Origin: Methylobacterium radiodurans
GTDB lineage: Bacteria > Pseudomonadota > Alphaproteobacteria > Rhizobiales > Beijerinckiaceae
Length of the DNA stretch: 64,000 bases
Direction: 5' to 3'
Assembly (NCBI RefSeq): GCF_003173735.1
Contig: NZ_CP029551.1
Span: forward strand, 3,434,001-3,498,000
A program made the translations under genes and the position numbers. The number at the start of each line of letters is the position of its first letter. Positions within the stretch are counted from its first letter, which is position 1. Positions 52,792-64,000 of this stretch are shown in pieces. The notes below the pieces were generated by a model. That model did no database searches. It worked only from the letters and a program-made list of their open reading frames with translations, and had not been told where the DNA came from.

Positions 52792-52981
52792 GCCAAGTCC
52801 TCCGGCGGCGTGACGGCGCGTGCCACCCGCGATTCTGCCGCAACGCAGCGTGGCGGGCGCCGTTCCGTGCGACGCGAGAGCCCGGGATGGAACTTTGGTG
52901 GCATCCGTACCTTTTGGGTTTCGAGGCGGGTTCATCCGAGGCGCAGCCCCCAGGGGGCGCCTCCTTCGGCAATCAGCATCC

Positions 52982-54250
52982 ATGCTCGACGATCAGCGGC
53001 AGGCCGCGCCCGCCGACGCGTTCCCGCGCCGGTCCGAGGCGGACGTGGCGCGCGACCAAGACGGCGCGCGCGACATCCTCGACCTTCAGCCCGCCGCGCG
53101 CCGGCCCGGCGACCGGGAGGACGCGCGAGAGGACGCGCCGGAGGGCAAGGAGGCCCGCAAGGAGGCCGGGACGCGGGATCCCGACCAGGATGGCGGGGAC
53201 GAGACGGACGAGGCCGAGCGCCCGGGCGTGCTGCGGCGCCATCCTTGGTGGTTCGTGCTCGGCGGCCTCGTTCTCGTGGCGCTCGGCGTGGCCACGTTCC
53301 TCTACTGGCAGGTCTACGTTCATCCCTACGAGACCACCGACGACGCCTTCGTGGACGCGCGCAGCTTCACGATCGCCCCGAAGGTCGGCGGCTACGTCGT
53401 GGCCGTGCCGGTCACCGACAACCAGCACGTGAAGCCCGGCGACACGCTCTTCCAGATCGACCCGCGCGACTACCGCGTCGCGCTGGAGCAGGCCGAGGCG
53501 CAGGTGCAGGCGGCCGAGGCGGCGATCGAGAACGTCGACGCGCAGATCGCGGCGCAGCGGGCGCAGATCGAGGTGGCGCAGGCCCAGGTCGACACCGCGC
53601 AGGCGGCGCTGAAATTCGCCCAGGAGGATGCCGACCGCTACCAGAAGCTCGCCGAGCGCGGCGCCGGCACCATCCAGCAATCGCAATCCTCGACCTCTAC
53701 CCTGCAGCAGCGCCAGGCCGCGCTGACGAGCGCCAACGCGAACGTAGTGGCGGCCGAGCGGCAGGTCGGCTCACTCAAAGCCCAGCGCGCCAGCGCCGAG
53801 GCGCAGCTTGCCCAGGCCAAGGCCCAGCGTGACCAGGCCCGGCTCAACCTCGGCTACACGACCGTGACGGCGGCGCAAGGAGGCCGCGTCGTGCGTCTCA
53901 CCGGCGGCGTCGGGGAATACGCCCAGGCGGGCCAGAGCCTGTCGATGTTCGTGCCCGACGCGATCTGGATCACCGCGAACTACAAGGAGACCCAGGTCAC
54001 CGACATGCGCCCGGGCCAGAACGTCGACGTCACGATCGACGCCTATCCGGACCGCAAGATCACCGGCCGGATCGACTCGGTGCAGCCGGGCTCCGGCACC
54101 GCCTTCAGCCTGCTGCCCGCGCAGAACGCCACCGGCAACTACGTGAAGGTGACGCAGCGCATTCCCGTGAAGATCGTGGTCGACGCCTGGCCCACCGATG
54201 TCTCGATCGGTCCGGGCATGTCGGTGGTGCCGAAAGCCCACGTGCGGTGA
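52982..54250 (+). CDS. emrA: EmrA-type membrane fusion protein
   Basis: Periplasmic adaptor of a tripartite pump. 422 aa from ATG 52982. An unusually long, strongly charged cytoplasmic head of about 85 residues (such as GDREDAREDAPEGKEARKEA) precedes the membrane anchor (WWFVLGGLVLVALGVATFLY). A lipoyl/barrel region (YETTDDAFVDARSFTIAPKV, LFQIDPRDYRVAL) brackets a long Gln/Ala coiled coil (about 165-290). The beta-barrel follows (ITANYKETQVTDMRPGQNVD). The charged head is absent from E. coli EmrA. Overlaps emrB by GTGA. Confidence 0.92.
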   Translation: MLDDQRQAAPADAFPRRSEADVARDQDGARDILDLQPAARRPGDREDAREDAPEGKEARKEAGTRDPDQDGGDETDEAERPGVLRRHPWWFVLGGLVLVALGVATFLYWQVYVHPYETTDDAFVDARSFTIAPKVGGYVVAVPVTDNQHVKPGDTLFQIDPRDYRVALEQAEAQVQAAEAAIENVDAQIAAQRAQIEVAQAQVDTAQAALKFAQEDADRYQKLAERGAGTIQQSQSSTSTLQQRQAALTSANANVVAAERQVGSLKAQRASAEAQLAQAKAQRDQARLNLGYTTVTAAQGGRVVRLTGGVGEYAQAGQSLSMFVPDAIWITANYKETQVTDMRPGQNVDVTIDAYPDRKITGRIDSVQPGSGTAFSLLPAQNATGNYVKVTQRIPVKIVVDAWPTDVSIGPGMSVVPKAHVR

Positions 54251-55836
54251 GCGCCGCCTCCTCCGAAGCGCCCGGGGGCCACAACCCCTGGGCGGTCGCC
54301 CTCGTGGTGGCGCTCGCCACCTTCATGGAGGTGCTCGACACCACGATCGCCAACGTCGCGCTCCGCTACATCTCGGGCGGCCTCGCGGTCGGGCCCGACG
54401 AGGCGGCATGGGTGGTGACGAGCTACCTCGTGGCCAACGCCATCACGCTGATCGCGTCGAGCTTCCTAGCCAAGCGCTACGGGCGCAAAGCCTTCTTCAT
54501 GTGGAGCGTGGCGCTCTTCACGCTCGCCTCGATCCTGTGCGGCTTCGCCTGGAGCCTGGAATCGCTGCTGCTGTTCCGGGTGCTCCAGGGGCTCGGCGGC
54601 GGCGGCATGGCGCCGCTGGCCCAGTCGATCCTGGCGGATTCCTTCCCGCCCGCGAAGCGGGGCCAAGCCTTCGCCCTCTACGGCGTCGCCATCGTGGTGG
54701 CGCCGGTGATCGGCCCGACGCTCGGCGGCTGGCTCTCCGACAACGCCTCCTGGCACTGGTGCTTCCTGATCAACGGGCCGATCGGCGTGATCGCGCTCGG
54801 CCTGATGTACTGGCTGATCGAGGACAGCGAGGCGGCCAAGCGCAAGCGCCGGGACTTGCGGCGGAAGGGGGTGCGCTTCGACCTTGTCGGCTTCCTGCTG
54901 GTGGCGCTCTTCCTCGGCTCGCTTGAGGTCGTCCTCGACGAGGGCCAGCGCAAGGACTGGTTCGGCACCTCGACCCTGATGAACGTCTTCGGCGTGCTCA
55001 CCGTGGTCGCGTTCTGCGCCATGATCCCGTGGCTGCTGACCCGGAAGAACCCGGTCATCGACCTGCGCCTGCTGAACAGCCGCCAGTTCGGCGCCTGCTT
55101 CGTGGTGATGCTGTTCACCGGTGCGGTCCTGATCGCCACCACGCAGTTCATCCCGCAGATCACGCAGGAGTACTACGGCTACACCGCCACCCTGTCGGGG
55201 CTGGTGCTCGGCCCCGGCGGCCTCGTCACGGTGGCGATGATGGCGCTGGTCGGGCGGCTCTCGTCCTTCGTGCAGCCCAAATGGCTGATCGCGACGGGCG
55301 GGGCGATCGTGGCCGCCGGGATGTACGACCTCACCCGGATCTACGGCGACACCACGTTCTGGTTCTTCGCGTGGTCGCGGATCTATATCGGCATCGGCCT
55401 GCCGATGATCTTCCTCTCGGTGACCTCGGCCTCCTACGAGGGGCTGCGGAAGGAGCAGACCGACCAAGCCTCGGCGCTCATCAACGTGGCGCGCAACGTC
55501 GGCGGCTCGATGGGCGTGTCGCTCGCCCAGAACATCCTGGCCTATCGCAGCCAGTTCCATCAGAGCCGGCTGGTGGAATCGGTCGATCCGTCGAGCCCGG
55601 CCTACCAGGAGACCCTGGCGCAGGCGACGCGCTACTTCCAGCAGCACGGGCTGGCGGGGCCGGACGCGCAGAATCAGGCCATCGCCTGGATCGGCAGCCA
55701 GCTCTCCACCCAGGTGGCCTACTGGGCCTATATCGACGTGTTCTGGGTGCTCGGCGCGATGACCGCCTGCCTCGTGCCGCTGGCGCTCATCCTCAAGAAC
55801 GTGAAGCTCGGCGGAGGTGCGCAGGCGGCGCATTGA
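54247..55836 (+). CDS. emrB: EmrB-type MFS drug exporter (DHA2, 14 helices)
   Basis: 529 aa from GTG 54247, coupled to emrA. The first helix carries the DHA2 motif ATFMEVLDTTIANVALRYIS; the loop 2-3 motif reads FLAKRYGRKAFFMWSVALFT; motif C reads YGVAIVVAPVIGPTLGGWLS. Fourteen helices fit the length. Exports drugs or other hydrophobic compounds by proton antiport, with EmrA and an outer-membrane channel encoded elsewhere. The substrate is unknown, and there is no local regulator of MarR/TetR type. Confidence 0.93.
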   Translation: MSAASSEAPGGHNPWAVALVVALATFMEVLDTTIANVALRYISGGLAVGPDEAAWVVTSYLVANAITLIASSFLAKRYGRKAFFMWSVALFTLASILCGFAWSLESLLLFRVLQGLGGGGMAPLAQSILADSFPPAKRGQAFALYGVAIVVAPVIGPTLGGWLSDNASWHWCFLINGPIGVIALGLMYWLIEDSEAAKRKRRDLRRKGVRFDLVGFLLVALFLGSLEVVLDEGQRKDWFGTSTLMNVFGVLTVVAFCAMIPWLLTRKNPVIDLRLLNSRQFGACFVVMLFTGAVLIATTQFIPQITQEYYGYTATLSGLVLGPGGLVTVAMMALVGRLSSFVQPKWLIATGGAIVAAGMYDLTRIYGDTTFWFFAWSRIYIGIGLPMIFLSVTSASYEGLRKEQTDQASALINVARNVGGSMGVSLAQNILAYRSQFHQSRLVESVDPSSPAYQETLAQATRYFQQHGLAGPDAQNQAIAWIGSQLSTQVAYWAYIDVFWVLGAMTACLVPLALILKNVKLGGGAQAAH

Positions 55837-55890: not shown

Positions 55891-57108
55891 TTACAGCCCC
55901 GCGGGCAACGCCTCGGTGACCTGCACGCGGCCGGTCTCGGCGGGCTCGGCGACGCGCACCGGGGTCTCGTCGCTCTCCGGCTCGGGCTGGCGGGCGAGCG
56001 CGGCGACGCCCTCGTAGCGGCTCAGCCGCTTGTCCATCATGCCGTCGATGCGCTCGTAGACCTCGGCGACCGTGAGCCCGCGGCGGCCCTTGCCGCTCTT
56101 CTGCGTGAACAGGCTGCGGTTCGCCCGCGCGGCGGAGCGGAACGCCTTCTGGGCCGAGGCCTCGGGCTTGTCGCTCGACAGGCTGAGGAAGCGGCCCGCG
56201 CTCGCGGTGCCGAGGAAGTGGGCGAAGTACAGCTCGGTCGTGCTCAGCTCGCGCCCGACCCGCGCCTCGATCCGGCCGCGGTCGCGCTTCACCAGCTCGG
56301 CCGCCATCAGGCAGGCGACATAGGGGTCGTTGCGGAGCGACAGCACCCGCTGGCGCATCCCGTCCGCGACCGAGATCGCGCCGCCGCGGCCCTTCACGGC
56401 CGCCGCCTCCGCGGCGAGCCCGTAGCGGGCGCCGTAATCGCGGATCATCTCCAGCCAGGTCGCGGTCACGAACTGGAACAGGCCCTGCGCCGAGGAGGTC
56501 GCGGCCTTCACGTCCGTGTCGAAGCTCGATTCCTTGTCGGCGAGCGCCATCATGTAGACCGGATTGACGCCGGCCTCCTCCGAGGCCCGCAGGATCGTGT
56601 CCACCACCCGGCGCGGCACGCTCATCGGGCCGAACTTGATCTTCTCCTCGGCGGCGTCCCGCACCGGCTGGGGCAGGGCGGCGAGGTCGCCCTCGATCAG
56701 CGCGGTCGTCGCAGGCTCCTGCTCGGGGACCGGCACGCCGGTCCACACGGCATCGGAACCAACCTCGTCCCGGGGCGTTTCGATCTCGGACGCGGCAGCC
56801 CCCACGGCCTCTGCCGCGGCCTGCGCCTCCAGGGCCTGCGCGGCGCGTGGGCTCAGGTCGATGCGGTCATGGGCCGAGGCGACCGGCGCGAATGCGGTCT
56901 GCGGCAGGGCGAGACCGGCCAGGAGTGCGGCCACCAGCGTGGCGCCGCGGCGGGTCTTCGCACGACGGGTCTTGGCAAAGCTCCGGCGCTCTTGTCCGCG
57001 CACGGCCCGCGGCAGCCACGCCACGGTCTGATCCTCGCAAAAGGTCTCGCAAGGCACGAGACGGCTCACGTCGTCGGCGCAGCGCGCCGGCTCCGGGACA
57101 ACCCCCAT
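55891..57108 (-). CDS. Lytic transglycosylase (SLT domain)
   Basis: Cleaves peptidoglycan glycan strands in the periplasm. 405 aa. A basic N-terminus is followed by a hydrophobic export segment (ATLVAALLAGLALPQTAFAP, about 55-75). The SLT domain lies at about 170-290: catalytic Glu in MALADKESSFDTD, SSAQGLFQFVTATWLEMI, and the C-terminal part YFAHFLGTASAGRFL. A tail of about 110 residues (KSGKGRRGLTVAEVYERIDG) has no known domain. The ATG at 57108 leaves a long lead before the export segment; a later start is possible but no better ATG is visible. Confidence 0.87.
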   Translation of the reverse strand: MGVVPEPARCADDVSRLVPCETFCEDQTVAWLPRAVRGQERRSFAKTRRAKTRRGATLVAALLAGLALPQTAFAPVASAHDRIDLSPRAAQALEAQAAAEAVGAAASEIETPRDEVGSDAVWTGVPVPEQEPATTALIEGDLAALPQPVRDAAEEKIKFGPMSVPRRVVDTILRASEEAGVNPVYMMALADKESSFDTDVKAATSSAQGLFQFVTATWLEMIRDYGARYGLAAEAAAVKGRGGAISVADGMRQRVLSLRNDPYVACLMAAELVKRDRGRIEARVGRELSTTELYFAHFLGTASAGRFLSLSSDKPEASAQKAFRSAARANRSLFTQKSGKGRRGLTVAEVYERIDGMMDKRLSRYEGVAALARQPEPESDETPVRVAEPAETGRVQVTEALPAGL

Positions 57109-57433: not shown

Positions 57434-58624
57434 ATGAGCATGCAGACCGGTCGCCGTGTCGGCGTTGCCTTCGTTGGTATGGGTGGGGCCGTCGCCACCA
57501 CCGCCATCGCCGGCATCGAGATGATCAAGTCCGGATCGAACCGACTCGACGGGCTGCCGCTCGCCGGCGTCTCCGTCGCCGGCATGGCCGACTACAAGGA
57601 CCTCGTCTTCGGGGGCTGGGACCTCAACGGCGACGATCTCGCCGCCGCGGCCGCGGGCCACGGCGTCCTGACGAAGCAGGATATCGAGAACGGCGCCCAG
57701 GTGCTCAAGGGCATCACGCCCTGGCCGGCGGTCGGCAGCGCGAAGTTCTGCAAGAACATCGACGGCCAGAACCGCATCGTCGCCAAGGACCACCGCGAGG
57801 CGGTCTCGGTCATCGCCAACGACCTGCGCCGCTTCCAGAAGGAGAGCAACCTCGACGAGGTGGTGGTGGTCAACCTCGCCTCGACCGAGCGCTGGCCCGA
57901 CCTCAGCGACCCGACCCTGAACTCGGCCGAGGCCTTCGAGCGGGGCCTGGATTCAAGCGACGAGTCGATCTCGCCCGCGATGCTCTATGCCTACGCGGCG
58001 ATCAAGAGCGGCGTCCCCTACGCCAACTTCACGCCTTCCGTCGCCGCCGACGTGCCGGCGCTGCTGGAGCTCGCCAAGGAACTGAACGTCCCGGTCGCCG
58101 GCAAGGACGGCAAGACCGGCCAGACCATGATGAAGACGGTGCTGGCCCCGGCCTTCAAGGCCCGCGCACTGCACGTCGACGGCTGGTTCTCGACCAACAT
58201 CCTGGGCAACCGCGACGGCCTGGCGCTGAACGACCCGAACTCGCTGCAGTCGAAGCTCAACACCAAGGGCACGGTGCTCGACTCGATCCTCGGCTATCCG
58301 GTCGAGGACCACTTGGTCCACATCCACTATTACCGCCCGCGCGGCGACGACAAGGAAGCCTGGGACAACATCGACGTCACCGGCTTCATGGGCCAGCGCA
58401 TGCAGATCAAGGTGAACTTCCTCTGCAAGGACTCGATCCTGGCAGCCCCCCTGGTGATCGAGATCGCCCGCGTGCTGGATCTGGCCAAGAAGCGCGGCGA
58501 CGGCGGCGTGCAGGAGCAGCTCTCGACCTTCTTCAAGGCTCCGATGGTCAAGAACGGCCACGGGCCCGAGCACGCCTTCGGCAAGCAGGAGAAGATGCTG
58601 CGCGACTGGCTCGGCGTGAACTGA
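57434..58624 (+). CDS. ino1: Inositol-3-phosphate synthase
   Basis: Converts glucose 6-phosphate to 1L-myo-inositol 1(3)-phosphate with internal NAD redox. 396 aa, the short bacterial/archaeal form: NAD motif VGVAFVGMGGAVATTAIAGI, AGKDGKTGQTMMKTVLAPAF (lid/active-site loop), GWFSTNILGNRDGLALNDPN, and VEDHLVHIHYYRPRGDDKEA (catalytic Lys region). ATG 57434 gives MSMQTGRRVGVAFVG. It opens a run of metabolic genes on the plus strand, and its stop overlaps the next start (TGATG at 58622-58626). In Alphaproteobacteria this gene is not universal, so the setting suggests a special inositol product. Confidence 0.94.
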   Translation: MSMQTGRRVGVAFVGMGGAVATTAIAGIEMIKSGSNRLDGLPLAGVSVAGMADYKDLVFGGWDLNGDDLAAAAAGHGVLTKQDIENGAQVLKGITPWPAVGSAKFCKNIDGQNRIVAKDHREAVSVIANDLRRFQKESNLDEVVVVNLASTERWPDLSDPTLNSAEAFERGLDSSDESISPAMLYAYAAIKSGVPYANFTPSVAADVPALLELAKELNVPVAGKDGKTGQTMMKTVLAPAFKARALHVDGWFSTNILGNRDGLALNDPNSLQSKLNTKGTVLDSILGYPVEDHLVHIHYYRPRGDDKEAWDNIDVTGFMGQRMQIKVNFLCKDSILAAPLVIEIARVLDLAKKRGDGGVQEQLSTFFKAPMVKNGHGPEHAFGKQEKMLRDWLGVN

Positions 58625-59556
58625 TGGCCGCGGCCGATCAGGGTGGGGCCCCCTCGGGCCCCGCCGCACCGCTCGAGCTCCGGGACCTCCTGGTCGAGCT
58701 GAACGACCTGAAGCGCGTCCGCTCGGCGGGCCGCACCGGCTCCATCGCCGAGCGCCTGTTCGCGCAAGGGTGGGGGATGCTGACCGGCGGCGCGAGCCCG
58801 GAGGAGGTCGCCCTCGACATCACCGCCACCGCGCTCGCCGCCACCCGCCTCTGCGACCTCGACGCGGCCTTCCTGGCCTCGGCCGGGCTCTCGGACGCGG
58901 CGGTCGCCGAGGTGCTGGTCTCGGGCTTCGACGCGGTGACGGACGCGCTCGATCCGGCGCTGCGCGAGCGGCTGCGCGAGCGCCTCCAGATCCGCACCGA
59001 GGTGGTGCCGGGCCCGCTGCCGGGCTTCGTCGCGGCGCTCGCCCAGCAGCCGCGGGCGGGCGTGACCTGCCCGGGCCGCGCCCGGATCCTCCTCGAGCCG
59101 CCCGAGAACCACGCCGAGCACTGCCTGATGGTGGCGGTCTACGGCGTGGCGCTCAGCCCGTTCTACCGGGCCGATCCCGCGACCGTGTTCCTCGCCGCGA
59201 TGGCGCACCACTTCCACAACGCCGCGATGCCGGATGCCGGCTTCACCGGCGAGATGCTGCTCGGTGACCATCTCGGGCCGATCATGGAGACCACCGCGCG
59301 CTGGGCGCTCGACGCGCTCGATCCTGCTCTGCGCGACCAGGTCGTGCGCGCCCGCGCGGTGCTGCCCGACGACGCGACCGCCGAGGGCCGCGCCTTCCAC
59401 GCCGCCGACTGCATCGACCGCGTGCTCCAGATCGCCCAGCACCTAAACGCCGCCTCGCTGACGATGCAGACGGTGCTGGATGACATGGAACTCGTGCATG
59501 CCGGCCCGGTGAAGGGTTTCCACGACCGCGTTCTGGCCGATATGCGGATTCCGTGA
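58624..59556 (+). CDS. HD-superfamily-like protein with altered HD pair
   Basis: 310 aa, coupled to ino1 by TGATG. The N-terminal half (about 1-150) is helical and unassigned (LELRDLLVELNDLKRVRSAG, RLFAQGWGMLTGGASPEEVA). The C-terminal half has the HD-domain series: PENHAEHCLMVAVYGVAL (first His), AAMAHHFHNAAMP where the HD pair is HH, GDHLGPIMETTARW, and HAADCIDRVLQI (last Asp). HD proteins are phosphohydrolases or, less often, diiron oxygenases acting on inositol (MIOX) or phosphonates. A phosphatase or oxygenase acting after inositol phosphate synthase would fit the position; that is inference. No membrane segment. A hairpin and a dispersed repeat follow. Confidence 0.7.
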   Translation: MAAADQGGAPSGPAAPLELRDLLVELNDLKRVRSAGRTGSIAERLFAQGWGMLTGGASPEEVALDITATALAATRLCDLDAAFLASAGLSDAAVAEVLVSGFDAVTDALDPALRERLRERLQIRTEVVPGPLPGFVAALAQQPRAGVTCPGRARILLEPPENHAEHCLMVAVYGVALSPFYRADPATVFLAAMAHHFHNAAMPDAGFTGEMLLGDHLGPIMETTARWALDALDPALRDQVVRARAVLPDDATAEGRAFHAADCIDRVLQIAQHLNAASLTMQTVLDDMELVHAGPVKGFHDRVLADMRIP

Positions 59557-59632
59557 TCGGGAGGAACCCGCGAGACCGTTCCGGGGCAGGGGACTGCTCC
59601 GGGCCCGGCGTCGCGGGTCTCCCGTTCGGGCC

Positions 59633-59737
59633 TAGAGCCGCGCCCGATCGCGTTGCAATCGGGCGCGGCTCTAAGCTCTTGTTTTGACGTGCTCTCTTGC
59701 GCCGAACCGGCGTCCACTTCGGCGGAGAGCGCTCTAG
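59633..59737. repeat. Dispersed Rhizobiales-type mosaic repeat
   Basis: A 16-base perfect hairpin (59633-59648 with 59658-59673, loop with GCGTTGCA) is followed by CTCTTGTTTTGACGTGCTCT, then a second imperfect palindrome enclosing CCGAACCGG and ending GAGAGCGCTCTAG at 59737. The GTTGCAATCGG ... TTGTTTTGACG ... GAACCGG...CCACTTCG pattern matches what I recall of a non-coding repeat scattered through Methylobacterium and related genomes. It lies 10 bases before the methyltransferase start and may separate it from the upstream pair. A CCCGCG(A)GAC/GTCGCGGG hairpin precedes it (about 59568-59620), probably the terminator of the HD gene. Confidence 0.75.
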
Positions 59738-59746
59738 ATTGAGTCC

Positions 59747-60931
59747 ATGATTCCCTTCGCCCTGCGCTCGCCCGAGACCGGCAACCCGCTCCGCGCCGAC
59801 CGCCCGCACTCGCTCGCGGACGAGGAGACCGGCGCGCGCTGGCCGGTCATCGACGGCATCCCCTATCTGCGCATCAACCGCGCCCAGCTGATCGAGCGCG
59901 TGATCGCCCATCTCGACGCGGGCGAGCCCGACGAGGCGCTCTGCGCGCTGCTCGCCGACCAGGACGATTGGTGGACCGGGCCGCCGGCCGACGCGGGCGA
60001 GATCCGACAGCTCGTCAAGAGCCGCGCCACCGCCACCCTGCGCGACGCGGTGCGGCTCCTCGGCTGGGGCCGGGTCGGCGACTACTTCCTGCACCGTTGG
60101 AGCGACCCGACCTATCTGGCGGGCCTCGCGCTCTTGGAAGCGCACTGGAACGAGCCGACCTGCGTCTTCGAGTTCGCCTGCGGCATCGGCCACTACCTGC
60201 GCGAGCTGAAGCGGCGCGGCCACAAGGTGGCGGGCGCCGACGTGGTCTTCGCCAAGCTCTGGGTCGCCCGGCACTGGGTGGTCGGGGACAAGGCGCAGCT
60301 CGTCTGCTTCGACGCGGCCTCGGAGCACTGGCCGATCCCAGGCGCACCGGTCGACCTCGTGCTCTGCAACGACGCCTTCTACTTCCTCGACGACAAGCCG
60401 CGCCTGCTCGAATCCCTGCGCCAGACGGCCGGCGACGACGGCTGGCTCGCGATCAGCCACATCCACAACGCCGAGAGCCCCGGCTTCTCGGCGGGCCGCG
60501 CGGTGACCGCAGAGGACATCGCCGAGCTGTTCCCGGACGCCCTCGTCTACGACGACGCCGAGCTGACGCGGGCGCTCGTCGAGGCCCGCGCGCCGGGCCC
60601 CCGCGAGCCCGGGGAGCTGCGCGCCTGCGAGGCCTTCTCGGTGGTGGCCGGGCCCGGCATGCGGCCCGCCCCGCGCGCGGTGATCGACGGCCTCACCCTG
60701 CCGCCGGCCGGCACGGAACTCCACCTCAACCCGCTCTACCAGCCGGACGCGGGTGGCGGCTTCACCATCCGCTGGCCCTCGGAGCGCTACGAGGCCGAGT
60801 ACGCCCGCCTCGTCACCTACCCGCTGCACTCGGAAGGGCCGGAGCGCCTGCGCTTCACCGGGGTGCCGGAGGCGGCGGAATCCGACCGGGTGCGGCGGCG
60901 CGAGTTCGTCGACCTGCCGGAGCGCTGGTGA
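59747..60931 (+). CDS. SAM-dependent methyltransferase
   Basis: 394 aa. The N-terminus resembles the Trm112-type fold fused to methyltransferases (MIPFALRSPETGNPLRADRP to WPVIDGIPYLRINR) but lacks its zinc cysteines. The Rossmann methyltransferase has motif I in VFEFACGIGHYLREL (about 139-153), motif II acidic VAGADVVF, and post-I LVLCNDAFYFLDDKPRLLES. A C-terminal domain of about 120 residues (from about 275) is unassigned, ending REFVDLPERW. The substrate is unknown; a sugar or cyclitol O- or N-methylation would fit the context. Its stop overlaps the oxidoreductase start (TGATG). Confidence 0.85.
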   Translation: MIPFALRSPETGNPLRADRPHSLADEETGARWPVIDGIPYLRINRAQLIERVIAHLDAGEPDEALCALLADQDDWWTGPPADAGEIRQLVKSRATATLRDAVRLLGWGRVGDYFLHRWSDPTYLAGLALLEAHWNEPTCVFEFACGIGHYLRELKRRGHKVAGADVVFAKLWVARHWVVGDKAQLVCFDAASEHWPIPGAPVDLVLCNDAFYFLDDKPRLLESLRQTAGDDGWLAISHIHNAESPGFSAGRAVTAEDIAELFPDALVYDDAELTRALVEARAPGPREPGELRACEAFSVVAGPGMRPAPRAVIDGLTLPPAGTELHLNPLYQPDAGGGFTIRWPSERYEAEYARLVTYPLHSEGPERLRFTGVPEAAESDRVRRREFVDLPERW

Positions 60932-61956
60932 TGGAGCCCGTCCGCTGGGGCATCGTCGGCTACGGCTGGGTCGCCCGCGACTACATGGCGCCCGGCATCC
61001 GCGAGGCCGGGCACCGGCTGGTCGCGGTCTGCGATCCCGGCGAGGCGGCCCGCGCGGCCGCCGAGGCCGAGGGAGCGCGGGCCTACGCGAACCTCGCCGG
61101 CCTGATCGCCGATCCCGAGGTGGAAGCGGTCTACGTCGCGACGCCGAACCATCTCCACCGCGAGGCCGTGGAGGCGCTGGCCGCCGCGGGCAAGGCCGTG
61201 CTCTGCGAGAAGCCGATGGCGGCCTCGCTCAGCGACGCCGAGGCGATGGCGGCGGCCGTCCAGGCCCACGGCATCTTCTACGGCACCGCCTTCGACCAGC
61301 GCCACCACCCGGCCCACCGCCTGATGCGGGACGCGGTCCGGACCGGACGCCTCGGCACCGTGACGGCTTTGCGCATCGTCTACGCCTGCTGGCTGCACCG
61401 GGACTGGGCGCCGCAGGCAGGCCACGACAACTGGCGCATCGATCCGGCCCGGGCCGGGGGCGGCGCGCTGATCGACCTCGCGCCGCACGGGCTCGACCTC
61501 GTGGATTTCCTGCTGGACGAGTCGATCCGCGAGATCGCCGCCCTCACGCAGGCGCGCGCGCAGGATTACAGCGTGGACGACGGCGCCCTGCTGATCGGCC
61601 GCACGGAGAGCGGCGTGCTGGCGAGTCTCAACGTCGCCTACAATTGCCCGGACGCGCTGCCGCGCCGCCGCCTGGAGGTGGTCGGCACGCGCGGCCAGAT
61701 GGTCGCCGAGAACACGATGGGGCAGGTGGCCGGCGGCCGCCTCACGTTCATCGACGGTGCATCGGGCGCGGCCCAGGATGTCGCCTTCGACAGGGACGCC
61801 TCGCCCTTCACCGAGCAGGTGCGCGCCTTCGGCTCGGCGCTGCGCCGCCCGGCGGAGCGCGAGGCCTACGCGGCGGCGCGGGATCTCCACACGATGCGGC
61901 TCGTCGTGGGCGCCTACGCGAGCGACCGGGGTGGGGGCGGGAGGTTCGAACCGTGA
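60931..61956 (+). CDS. Gfo/Idh/MocA family oxidoreductase
   Basis: 341 aa NAD(P)-dependent dehydrogenase of the family that holds inositol 2-dehydrogenase and glucose-fructose oxidoreductase. N-terminal Rossmann motif GIVGYGWVARDYMAPGI; AVYVATPNHLHREAV; EKP motif CEKPMAASLSDAEAM (about 90-105); GTAFDQRHHPAHRLMRDAV; and catalytic-type IDLAPHGLDLVDFLLDES (Asp and His about 185-190). No signal peptide, so cytoplasmic. Adjacent ino1 and the methyltransferase suggest a sugar or inositol-derived substrate. Coupled to the methyltransferase. Confidence 0.88.
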   Translation: MEPVRWGIVGYGWVARDYMAPGIREAGHRLVAVCDPGEAARAAAEAEGARAYANLAGLIADPEVEAVYVATPNHLHREAVEALAAAGKAVLCEKPMAASLSDAEAMAAAVQAHGIFYGTAFDQRHHPAHRLMRDAVRTGRLGTVTALRIVYACWLHRDWAPQAGHDNWRIDPARAGGGALIDLAPHGLDLVDFLLDESIREIAALTQARAQDYSVDDGALLIGRTESGVLASLNVAYNCPDALPRRRLEVVGTRGQMVAENTMGQVAGGRLTFIDGASGAAQDVAFDRDASPFTEQVRAFGSALRRPAEREAYAAARDLHTMRLVVGAYASDRGGGGRFEP

Positions 61957-62017
61957 TGCACGCCGACCTTCACCTCAGCGCCGTGCTTCCGGATCATCAC
62001 CTTGAAGATCGCGGCCT

Positions 62018-62235
62018 CCCCTCTCCCCGTGCGCGGGGAGAGGGCTCCGGCGACCTGGTCGTCGCCGGAGCGAGCCGGCGCATCGATCCTGAAGGGATCG
62101 ACGCGGGGGTGAGGGGGCTTCGACGGAAGAGGCTTATCCGGACAAGCCCCCTCACCGCCGCTGCGGCTTCGCCTCCGCTTCCTGTCTGCACGACGGGGTG
62201 CAGACAGGCCTCTTCCCGCGCGGGGAGAGGGGGGA
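62018..62235. repeat. Cluster of palindromes before the YcaO gene
   Basis: The 326-base gap between the oxidoreductase and YcaO genes holds a run of palindromes: CCCTCTCCCC/GGGGAGAGGG (62019-62028, 62035-62044); CTCCGGCGAC/GTCGCCGGAG (62045-62054, 62061-62070); CGATCC/GGATCG (62084-62089, 62095-62100); GTGAGGGGGCTT/AAGCCCCCTCAC (62109-62120, 62144-62155); CCTGTCTGCAC/GTGCAGACAGG (62181-62191, 62198-62208); and an imperfect CCTCTTCCCGCG...GGGGAGAGG unit to 62230. They look like nested insertion of small repeat elements. They may end transcription here, or be spliced-in spacers. No gene is seen. Confidence 0.8.
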
Positions 62236-62282
62236 GCCGCGCCAGCCGCCCTGATCAACCGCGTTTGTCCTGAGGTGCATCC

Positions 62283-63881
62283 ATGACGACCCCCAGCCAA
62301 CAGGACCAGGACGCCCGCGCCCGCCACGCCCGCATCAAGGCGCCGCGGCCCTACAGCTACGGCGCCCCGCGCCGGATCGAGGGCCTGCCCGAGCGCCTGC
62401 CCGACCCCGTGCGGGCCTATCTCGACGTGCTGCCCCCGGGCCGCGTCGTCGGCTTCAACCTCGCGCCCCTCGACCGCACCGGCGTGCCGGTCTGGTTCGT
62501 CTCGCTCTTCCTCGACGATCCCTTCTTCGTCGGCGCGATGCCGTCCGGCATCGGCTACGGCGCCACCGACGACGAGGCGCTGATCGGCGCGGTCGCCGAG
62601 ATCGCCGAGAACCTGATGCCGTCGCTCGCCGTCATGCCGCGCAAGAAGGAGCGCGGCTCCTACAACGACCTCGTCCGGGTGTTCGGCCCGAAATCCGTCG
62701 CCGACCCGCTGACGCTCTGCCTGCCGGCGGGCTCGCCCGTGGGGCGCGACACGGTGCTCGAATGGACCCCGGCCACCCGCCGCGGCACGGGCGAGACCGT
62801 GCTGATGCCCCTCGACGTCGCGGCGACCGACTATTTCGAATTGTCGGAGGGCTACACGCCCTTCACCAACCTGATCACCAACGGCCTCGGCGCCGGCCCG
62901 GACGTGGACTTCGCCCTCGGGCACGGCGTGCTGGAACTGCTGCAGCGCGACGGCAACGGCCTCTTGTTCCGCGCCCTCGACCAGGGCGTGATGCTCGATT
63001 TCGAAGGTGGCATCTCGGACGAGAACGCCGCCATGCTGGCGCGGCTGGAGAGCCTCGGCATCCGGGCACTGCCGAAATTCGCCACCGACCAGTTCGGCCT
63101 GACCAACCTCTACGTGGTCGGCTACGACAGCAATCTCGCCGACGCCCCGACCCCGATCGCGCTCTCGGCCTGCGGCGAGGCCTGCGACCCGGACCGCGAC
63201 CGGGCCCTGCGCAAGGCGCTGCTCGAATTCCAGGCCGCGCGGGTGCGCAAGAGCTTCGGCCACGGGCCCCTCGACTTCGCGCGGCGCATCACGCCTCCGG
63301 GCTACGTCGATGCCTTCATCCAGAAGGCCCTGCCGAGCCTCGACCTGGAGGAGAGCCGGGCGCTCAAGGCCATGCTCGACTGGATCGTGCTGCCGCCGGA
63401 GGGCCTGCACGGCGTGCTCGCCGGCACGGTCTATTCCGAGCGCTCCACCAAGCGCTTCTCGGAACTGCCGACCCAGGAGGCCGCCGACGGCCACGCCCGC
63501 GGCAGGATCGCCTGCGACCGGCTGGAGCAGGCCGGCTTCGACGTGCTCTACGTCGATTGCTCGCCGCCCGGCGGAGGCGTGGGCGTCGCCAAGGCGATCG
63601 TGCCCGGTCTCGAGGTCGAGACCATGAGCTACTACCGGATCGGCGAGCGCAACACCCGCAAGCTCCTCGAGCGCGAGCACCCGCTGATCCGCTTCGGCGA
63701 GGCCAGCGAGACCCTGCGGCCGGTGCGGCTGACCCCGGAGGCGATCGAGCGCTTCGGCGGCCAGCCGCTCTTCGACACCGCGCTCGCCGAGGAGATCGTC
63801 GGCAGCCACTACCCGCTCTACCGCGAGCCGGAATCGCACCACGCGCCCTTCCGGCTGGAGCAGCGGGGGCGCGCCGCATGA
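62283..63881 (+). CDS. YcaO-like ATP-dependent cyclodehydratase-type enzyme
   Basis: 532 aa. The YcaO ATP-binding series is present: SGIGYGATDDEALIGAVAEI (about 90-110), TNGLGAGPDVDFALGHGVLE with LLQRDG (about 199-224, the E-x-x-x-R-D helix) and KALLEFQAARVRKSF (about 311-325, the E-x-x-Q-x-R element). YcaO enzymes use ATP to activate amide carbonyls, giving azolines, thioamides, amidines or macroamidines in peptides. Here the C-terminus (ESHHAPFRLEQRGRAA) lacks the Pro-rich tail of azoline-forming YcaOs. No E1-like partner, TfuA or short precursor gene is visible. Context points to sugar or inositol chemistry. Its stop overlaps the next start (ATGA 63878-63881). Confidence 0.85.
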   Translation: MTTPSQQDQDARARHARIKAPRPYSYGAPRRIEGLPERLPDPVRAYLDVLPPGRVVGFNLAPLDRTGVPVWFVSLFLDDPFFVGAMPSGIGYGATDDEALIGAVAEIAENLMPSLAVMPRKKERGSYNDLVRVFGPKSVADPLTLCLPAGSPVGRDTVLEWTPATRRGTGETVLMPLDVAATDYFELSEGYTPFTNLITNGLGAGPDVDFALGHGVLELLQRDGNGLLFRALDQGVMLDFEGGISDENAAMLARLESLGIRALPKFATDQFGLTNLYVVGYDSNLADAPTPIALSACGEACDPDRDRALRKALLEFQAARVRKSFGHGPLDFARRITPPGYVDAFIQKALPSLDLEESRALKAMLDWIVLPPEGLHGVLAGTVYSERSTKRFSELPTQEAADGHARGRIACDRLEQAGFDVLYVDCSPPGGGVGVAKAIVPGLEVETMSYYRIGERNTRKLLEREHPLIRFGEASETLRPVRLTPEAIERFGGQPLFDTALAEEIVGSHYPLYREPESHHAPFRLEQRGRAA

Positions 63882-64000
63882 GCCTGCGCTTCGCCTACAA
63901 CACCAATGGCGCCGCCAACCACCGGCTCGACGACGCCCTGCGCCTCATCAAGGCGGCGGGCTACGACGGCGTGGCGCTGACGCTCGACATCCACCACCTC
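63878..64000 (+). CDS. Sugar-phosphate isomerase/epimerase-type TIM barrel (partial)
   Basis: Cut by the window end after 41 codons. It starts MSLRFAYNTNGAANHRLDDA and continues LRLIKAAGYDGVALTLDIHH, the first strand-helix-strand of the xylose-isomerase-like (AP_endonuc_2) barrel that includes inosose isomerases/dehydratases and hexulose epimerases. ATG 63878 overlaps the YcaO stop, so the two are coupled. The family call rests on a short stretch and is moderately safe; a reaction cannot be assigned. Confidence 0.65.
   Translation, partial: MSLRFAYNTNGAANHRLDDALRLIKAAGYDGVALTLDIHHL

Follow-up and report, generated by a model that had tools for sequence, protein, structure and literature searches.

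Layout of the cassette

The window analysed here is a stretch of 64,000 nucleotides (G000:C1:3434001-3498000) from the genome of Methylobacterium radiodurans, which measures 5.54 Mb on one contig. The last part of the window holds a cassette of genes in which a stand-alone YcaO protein is surrounded by sugar and cyclitol enzymes. Gene calls and Pfam matches placed six genes at 57434..64000, all on the plus strand. The first encodes an Ino1-type inositol-1-phosphate synthase (57434-58624; PF07994, 3e-65, and PF01658, 6.3e-35). It is followed by an HD-superfamily protein (58624-59556; PF13023 at 15.7 bits, under the cut-off of 22.5), an S-adenosylmethionine-dependent methyltransferase (59747-60931; PF13489, 2.3e-11, and PF08241, 2.7e-10), a Gfo/Idh/MocA oxidoreductase (starting with GTG at 60928 or with ATG at 60931, and ending at 61956; PF01408, 9.8e-29, and PF22725), the YcaO protein (62283-63881; PF02624, 2.9e-42) and a xylose-isomerase-like TIM barrel (63878-64741; PF01261, 1.3e-34), of which 40 codons lie inside the window.

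These are the six co-directional genes of the original prediction, an earlier reading of the window from its letters, with families as it had named them. The three stop/start overlaps that it had pointed out were also recovered: TGATG between ino1 and the HD gene (58622-58626), TGATG between the methyltransferase and Gfo/Idh genes (60929-60933), and ATGA between ycaO and the barrel gene (63878-63881). The same reading had the pathway running on past the window, and this is indeed the case. With positions above 64000 continuing the window numbering into an extended stretch (L002), the barrel gene is completed at 64741, and a GT4 glycosyltransferase (64738-65976; PF00534, 2.2e-35) and a PIG-L deacetylase (65998-66783; PF02585, 1.7e-17) follow. 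These genes for sugar transfer and deacetylation, as well as an unlinked ninth gene, go beyond what had been predicted.

Conservation and a ninth member

A YcaO scan of genome contigs yielded 147 loci, the best 80 of which were named. All eight genes were present in the same order and on the same strand in 74 of these 80. Five others (L009, L036, L045, L080 and L082) are truncated at contig ends, and L081, from Microvirga arabica, is the only named locus with a YcaO gene but without the other cassette genes. In 70 of these 74 complete loci, ycaO and the barrel gene share exactly 4 bases, which indicates that the stop/start overlaps are not due to chance. The cassette genes thus form one unit, a well-supported result that bears out the original prediction; the case named there as refuting it, related genomes that never hold these genes together, did not occur.

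In a sample of 298 family genomes, 38 had YcaO at an E-value of 1e-40; of these, 25 belong to Methylobacterium and 13 to other genera. All 25 listed genomes of the genus carry it, and none is among the listed genomes without a match, a list that leaves out 240 of them. Outside the genus, the eight genes occur in order in G395, G416, G420 and G435, the Ino1 and HD frames of G416 being shortened. No ino1 gene was found nearby in G467, nor a PIG-L match within the stretch taken in G492, and the loci of G483, G485, G508, G530, G541 and G567 break off at the end of a contig.

At the class level and with an E-value of 1e-60, YcaO was found in 3 of 385 genomes, namely two Methylobacterium (that of the window included) and G348. 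The latter looks like a Skermanella (Azospirillaceae), judging from its best protein match (Skermanella, 92%); in its family, 6 of 59 genomes had YcaO at the same threshold. Myxobacteria and planctomycetes have YcaO proteins with 52-57% identity to the one of G348. Furthermore, the cassette occurs on plasmids, in Roseomonas haemaphysalidis and in Hymenobacter volaticus, so that it crosses phyla. The annotation of the Hymenobacter plasmid splits the Gfo/Idh gene (L159:14987-16035) into two adjoining pieces. In Roseomonas, the end of the PIG-L gene is overlapped by a gene for an mdoH-type glucosyltransferase (L160:21042-22604), which may provide an extra sugar step. At two Azospirillaceae loci, a small membrane protein of similar sequence is encoded beside PIG-L on the other strand (L167:8952-9320 and L125:13736-14158); it is possibly a transporter or an anchor.

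In Azospirillaceae, Roseomonas and Hymenobacter, the operon includes a further gene, located between those for Gfo/Idh and YcaO, for a rubredoxin-like protein of metallo-beta-lactamase (MBL) fold. The resulting nine-gene order was found at five Azospirillaceae loci taken at 20 kb, from the 6 genomes matched, and on the Roseomonas plasmid. In M. radiodurans the gene lies at G000:C1:1537917-1538780, 1.95 Mb from the cassette. Among the 298 family genomes, it is present in 37 of the 38 YcaO carriers and in none of the 260 others (Fisher test, P = 1.5e-46). Co-occurrence, together with position in other lineages, shows that the MBL gene is the ninth member. Its product has the metallo-beta-lactamase fold, but the HxHxDH metal motif reads HxHx(Y/F)G in 21 of 21 sequences, with H181, D200 and H220 retained.

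Co-occurrence with ultraviolet-repair genes

On the Roseomonas plasmid, the nine-gene cassette lies between DHH/uvsE genes, 8.6 kb upstream, and two genes of the spore photoproduct lyase (SPL) family, 1.5 kb downstream. In Microvirga arabica, the YcaO gene of L081 directly follows DHH, UvsE and SPL genes. Because of their proximity to YcaO in these two cases, SPL and UvsE were chosen for a test on whole genomes. The Roseomonas proteins served as queries, at an E-value of 1e-60, on 80 genomes of the family: 22 YcaO carriers (all 13 from other genera and 9 of the 25 Methylobacterium) and, as non-carriers, 58 genomes picked at intervals of about five handles.

SPL was found in 13 of the 22 carriers compared to none of the 58 non-carriers, and UvsE in 10 compared to 3. 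Taken together, 19 of the 22 carriers had SPL or UvsE, compared to 3 of the 58 non-carriers (P = 1.8e-12). Outside Methylobacterium, the proportion was 10 of 13 carriers against the same 3 of 58 (P = 1.5e-7), or 9 of 12 when G670 was left out (P = 6.5e-7). The two enzymes are distributed differently: all 9 Methylobacterium carriers had SPL and none had UvsE, while 10 of the 13 other carriers had UvsE and 4 had SPL. Two different repair routes therefore track the same cassette. Contrasts within genera agree with the ultraviolet (UV) link, but they are few: in genus g314, UvsE is present in 4 of 4 carriers and the sole sampled non-carrier has neither enzyme; in g305, both enzymes occur in the carrier and neither in 2 of 2 non-carriers. 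UvsE also varies in genera with no sampled carrier (2 of 3 non-carriers in g284, 1 of 2 in g294). These counts show that bacteria with the cassette strongly tend to own UV-damage repair enzymes.

Plasmids were considered as well. Among 72,556 plasmid records, the HD gene was found on 4 (E-value 1e-5), SPL on 14 and UvsE on 5 (E-value 1e-30). The HD gene and SPL share 3 records, and in two of these, Methylobacterium megaplasmids, they lie hundreds of kb apart. Two control plasmid loci with SPL or UvsE, from Aureimonas and Pelagibacterium, had no adjoining cassette, the other 11 SPL and 3 UvsE records being left out of this comparison.

Enzymes of the pathway and its possible product

The cassette YcaO belongs to the YcaO superfamily, and residues E109, N200, E218, R222, E299, E315 and R320, which we take to line the ATP site, are invariant in 25 homologues. 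It scored under the cut-off for every NCBIfam YcaO model matched, with 75.3 of 219.25 bits for the azoline-forming SagD-type model TIGR03604, and 49 of 365 bits for the McrA thioamidation model TIGR03266. Its closest solved relative is MJ1094, an archaeal protein whose group is tied to methyl-coenzyme M reductase thioamidation (PMC5589413). A profile of 25 members, compared with the PDB at an E-value of 0.001, matched MJ1094, 6ci7, TruD, LynD and MusD, and did not match E. coli YcaO. The latter thioamidates ribosomal protein uL16 (PMC13063428), and the characterised YcaO enzymes described there and in PMC5589413 act on peptides or proteins. The 6-thioguanine protein YcfA, considered as an example of a YcaO with a non-peptide substrate, was dropped, being a different ATP-dependent sulfurtransferase.

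Partners of the kind found in clusters for ribosomally synthesized and post-translationally modified peptides (RiPPs) were sought next to YcaO. By Pfam, none of the six window genes and the next seven, from GT4 to a SpoU-type gene, encodes an E1/ThiF, RRE or TfuA protein, the rest of the genome lying outside this search. For precursor peptides, four of the seven intergenic gaps of the cassette (those above 60 bases) were scanned in the 74 loci. The 51 ATG-started plus-strand open reading frames of at least 20 amino acids included no widely conserved candidate, the commonest being matched in 3 other loci, in a check of conservation that was confined to plus-strand frames of these gaps. Short frames are present in the 326-base gap before ycaO in this window, and since none is widely conserved, a precursor there was set aside. 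The absence of visible partners, as noted from the window alone, was thus confirmed beside YcaO, and no ordinary RiPP cluster appeared downstream.

Cassette Ino1, matched in 74 of the 76 loci L004-L079 with a median identity of 93%, scored 46.9 bits for the mycothiol INO1 equivalog TIGR03450 (cut-off 638). A second Ino1-type match lies in the same genome at G000:C1:3204364-3204942 (L199), 32% identical to residues 184-370 of cassette Ino1. For the methyltransferase, no NCBIfam equivalog was found at or above its cut-off. Gfo/Idh scored 121.4 of 355 bits for IolG, and its closest solved relative is 1,5-anhydro-D-fructose reductase (1.5e-44). The IolE equivalog gave 24.5 of 290 bits. GT4 scored 91.5 of 462.5 bits for MshA (TIGR03449) and 80.8 of 273.7 for BshA, and the BshB1 equivalog gave 26.9 of 182.5. 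The HD protein has the fold of the YfbR/HDDC2 phosphohydrolases, proteins of this type being its top structure matches (Foldseek, VIA-align). A role as a MIOX/PhnZ-like diiron oxygenase was set aside as less probable, PhnZ appearing only at Foldseek rank 26 (E-value 1.6) and not among the 50 VIA-align matches listed.

Mycothiol synthesis (Ino1, MshA, MshB, MshC, MshD) shares an inositol phosphate synthase, a GT4 and a PIG-L-type deacetylase with the cassette, which differs in the low equivalog scores of Ino1 and GT4 and in six extra gene types, YcaO included. YcaO RiPP clusters and archaeal McrA thioamidation (MJ1094) share the YcaO domain with its conserved acidic and arginine positions, but the cassette has sugar and cyclitol enzymes around it in place of peptide partners. 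The kasugamycin-type antibiotics would resemble its putative product in combining inositol and an amino sugar, with an amidine group. With mycosporine-like amino acids and gadusol, whose pathway is outlined partly after PMC7828830, the likeness is purely one of logic, a sugar-phosphate cyclase being joined by an O-methyltransferase and by an activating enzyme that depends on ATP. Neither a sedoheptulose-phosphate cyclase nor an ATP-grasp ligase domain is found among the cassette genes. The ligase of mycosporine synthesis, MysC, is of the ATP-grasp type; in the cassette, Ino1 stands for the cyclase and YcaO for the ligase, and a glycosyltransferase, a deacetylase and an oxidoreductase are added. 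The cassette fits none of the known pathways against which it was tested. The original prediction of an undescribed natural-product pathway holds in its first part, as no description was found in the open-access literature; its second part needs correction, because a gene set carried by all 25 listed genomes of the genus is not a sporadic natural-product cluster.

The best clue to the role of the cassette is exposure to UV, which the original prediction had not noticed. We tentatively propose that the nine genes turn inositol and an amino sugar into a small, very polar molecule that serves life under UV. As the pathway is UV-linked and genus-wide, the ultraviolet A (UVA) absorber of Methylobacterium is its likeliest candidate product. 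UVA-absorbing compounds of leaf Methylobacterium were reportedly described by Yoshida et al. in 2017, and the UVA compound is said to be polar. A review (PMC12573535) likens the compounds to avobenzone.

The steps, proposed from protein families, could be as follows. Ino1 would make inositol phosphate, from which the HD protein may strip the phosphate; GT4 would add an N-acetylhexosamine, and PIG-L would then free its amine. Gfo/Idh would oxidise a ring hydroxyl, the isomerase-like barrel would enolise or dehydrate the product, and the methyltransferase would cap the enol to give a gadusol-like enone. YcaO, with ATP, would activate the C-O bond of the vinylogous acid (or amide) so that nitrogen or sulfur replaces the oxygen, which would shift absorption into the UVA. 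That this is a new kind of sunscreen pathway, with a carbocycle from inositol synthase instead of sedoheptulose cyclase, an amino sugar, and a UVA chromophore made by YcaO on a non-peptide carbonyl, is possible but doubtful. The putative product is quite possibly the UVA-absorbing compound reported from Methylobacterium, and YcaO would act here on something other than a peptide. A sugar- or cyclitol-linked amide, as suggested in the original prediction, is one putative substrate.

Several observations weigh against this proposal. YcaO stands without other cassette genes on the stretch seen in Microvirga arabica, and alone on a 20 kb stretch (L171) in G670, where no HD or MBL gene was found; a methyltransferase match is missing from the Hymenobacter plasmid (tblastn to an E-value of 10); and the H...HD...D metal motif of the HD protein is altered, the doublet being H195-H196 in 28 of 28 aligned sequences, equated with the HD doublet by reading and not by superposition. 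On the Roseomonas plasmid, nine annotated genes separate DHH/uvsE from ino1, and mdoH separates PIG-L from the SPL genes. In M. radiodurans itself, SPL is at C1:1597873, not beside the cassette, and UvsE was not found at an E-value of 1e-60. Three of the 22 carriers have neither enzyme (G416, G420, G467), and 3 of the 58 non-carriers have UvsE (G392, G402, G432). Moreover, SPL and UvsE were picked after two loci had been seen, one of them from Microvirga, apparently the lineage of G670, and the P values are overstated because the genomes are related. Lastly, UVA absorption was reportedly seen by Yoshida et al. in 17 of 200 leaf isolates, all of them Methylobacterium. The open cassette-type YcaO frames of Microvirga arabica and its close relative G670 (L081:9995-11497 and L171:585-2087) may be relics, or proteins with a changed role.

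The main rival is an antioxidant of low molecular weight, a thiol or thione akin to mycothiol and bacillithiol. Here Ino1, an MshA-like GT4 and an MshB-like PIG-L would build a glucosaminyl-inositol core, to which YcaO would add sulfur (as a thioamide) or an acyl group. These are the reaction types that open mycothiol synthesis, the GT4 does score with MshA and BshA, and MJ1094 brings a link to thioamidation; an antioxidant would also suit UV-exposed life and fit the same UV association. We nevertheless consider it unlikely, given that every equivalog score is far under its cut-off and that Gfo/Idh, the barrel and the methyltransferase are left unexplained. Nor did the cassette genes or the five that follow PIG-L show a domain of MshC (cysteine ligase), MshD (acetyltransferase) or BshC type, a search that did not extend to the rest of the genome.

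Modification by YcaO of a protein or an unlinked peptide, the gene merely sitting among sugar genes, would agree with the substrates of the enzymes characterised so far in the two papers above and with the isolated YcaO genes of Microvirga arabica and G670. It appears quite unlikely in view of the 4-base overlap with the barrel gene, the same gene set in two phyla, the match with MBL gene presence in 37 of 38 carriers, and the lack of a match between the profile and E. coli YcaO. A glycosylated inositol head group or envelope glycolipid, flipped by an adjoining YbhN/MprF-type membrane protein, is very unlikely. GT4, PIG-L and Ino1 are also used in inositol-lipid pathways, and the membrane protein, encoded two genes past PIG-L, scores 204 bits for MprF (cut-off 600). 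However, no lipid-linking enzyme is recognisable in the cassette, and the membrane protein has no match in L083, L114, L125 or L167-L170, which places it outside the conserved nine genes. An operon for the catabolism or salvage of inositol glycosides would account for Gfo/Idh and AP_endonuc_2 proteins, common in inositol breakdown, and for the weak similarity to IolG and IolE. It is highly improbable, as these similarities stay well below the cut-offs, Ino1 and GT4 are of biosynthetic type, and the genes conserved along with the cassette include neither a transporter nor a regulator.

If our proposal is correct, this would be, to our knowledge, the first YcaO with a small-molecule substrate, and the Methylobacterium UVA absorber would be accounted for. 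With a YcaO long locked by evolution into a sugar and cyclitol pathway, a new class of reactions would come into view. Leaves are commonly inhabited by Methylobacterium, and with the cassette in all 25 listed genomes of the genus, the product would therefore be a core metabolite of a major habitat. The link with UV repair makes the identity and origin of the UVA absorber a question for a single-gene deletion.

Genes around the cassette

Upstream of ino1, a lytic-transglycosylase-like gene lies on the minus strand (55891-57108) and is matched in 72 of the 76 loci L004-L079; it is itself preceded by a pair of HlyD/EmrA-type and EmrB/MFS-type genes, identified by reading at 52820-55836 of the window. 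Downstream, PIG-L is followed by a UDG-like gene (66783-67427; L002:10784-11428), then by the YbhN/MprF-type membrane protein, a PAS histidine kinase, purD and, on the opposite strand, the SpoU-type gene. UDG, the YbhN/MprF-like protein and the histidine kinase were set aside as cassette members. UDG had no match in L083, L114 or the Roseomonas locus L160. It is located directly 3' of PIG-L in 69 of the 76 named loci that have PIG-L, and in 4 of 5 Azospirillaceae loci a relative with 53-56% identity (L125:3270-3935) lies immediately upstream of ino1 but on the opposite strand. A DNA-repair gene of the UDG family thus adjoins the cassette in two lineages.

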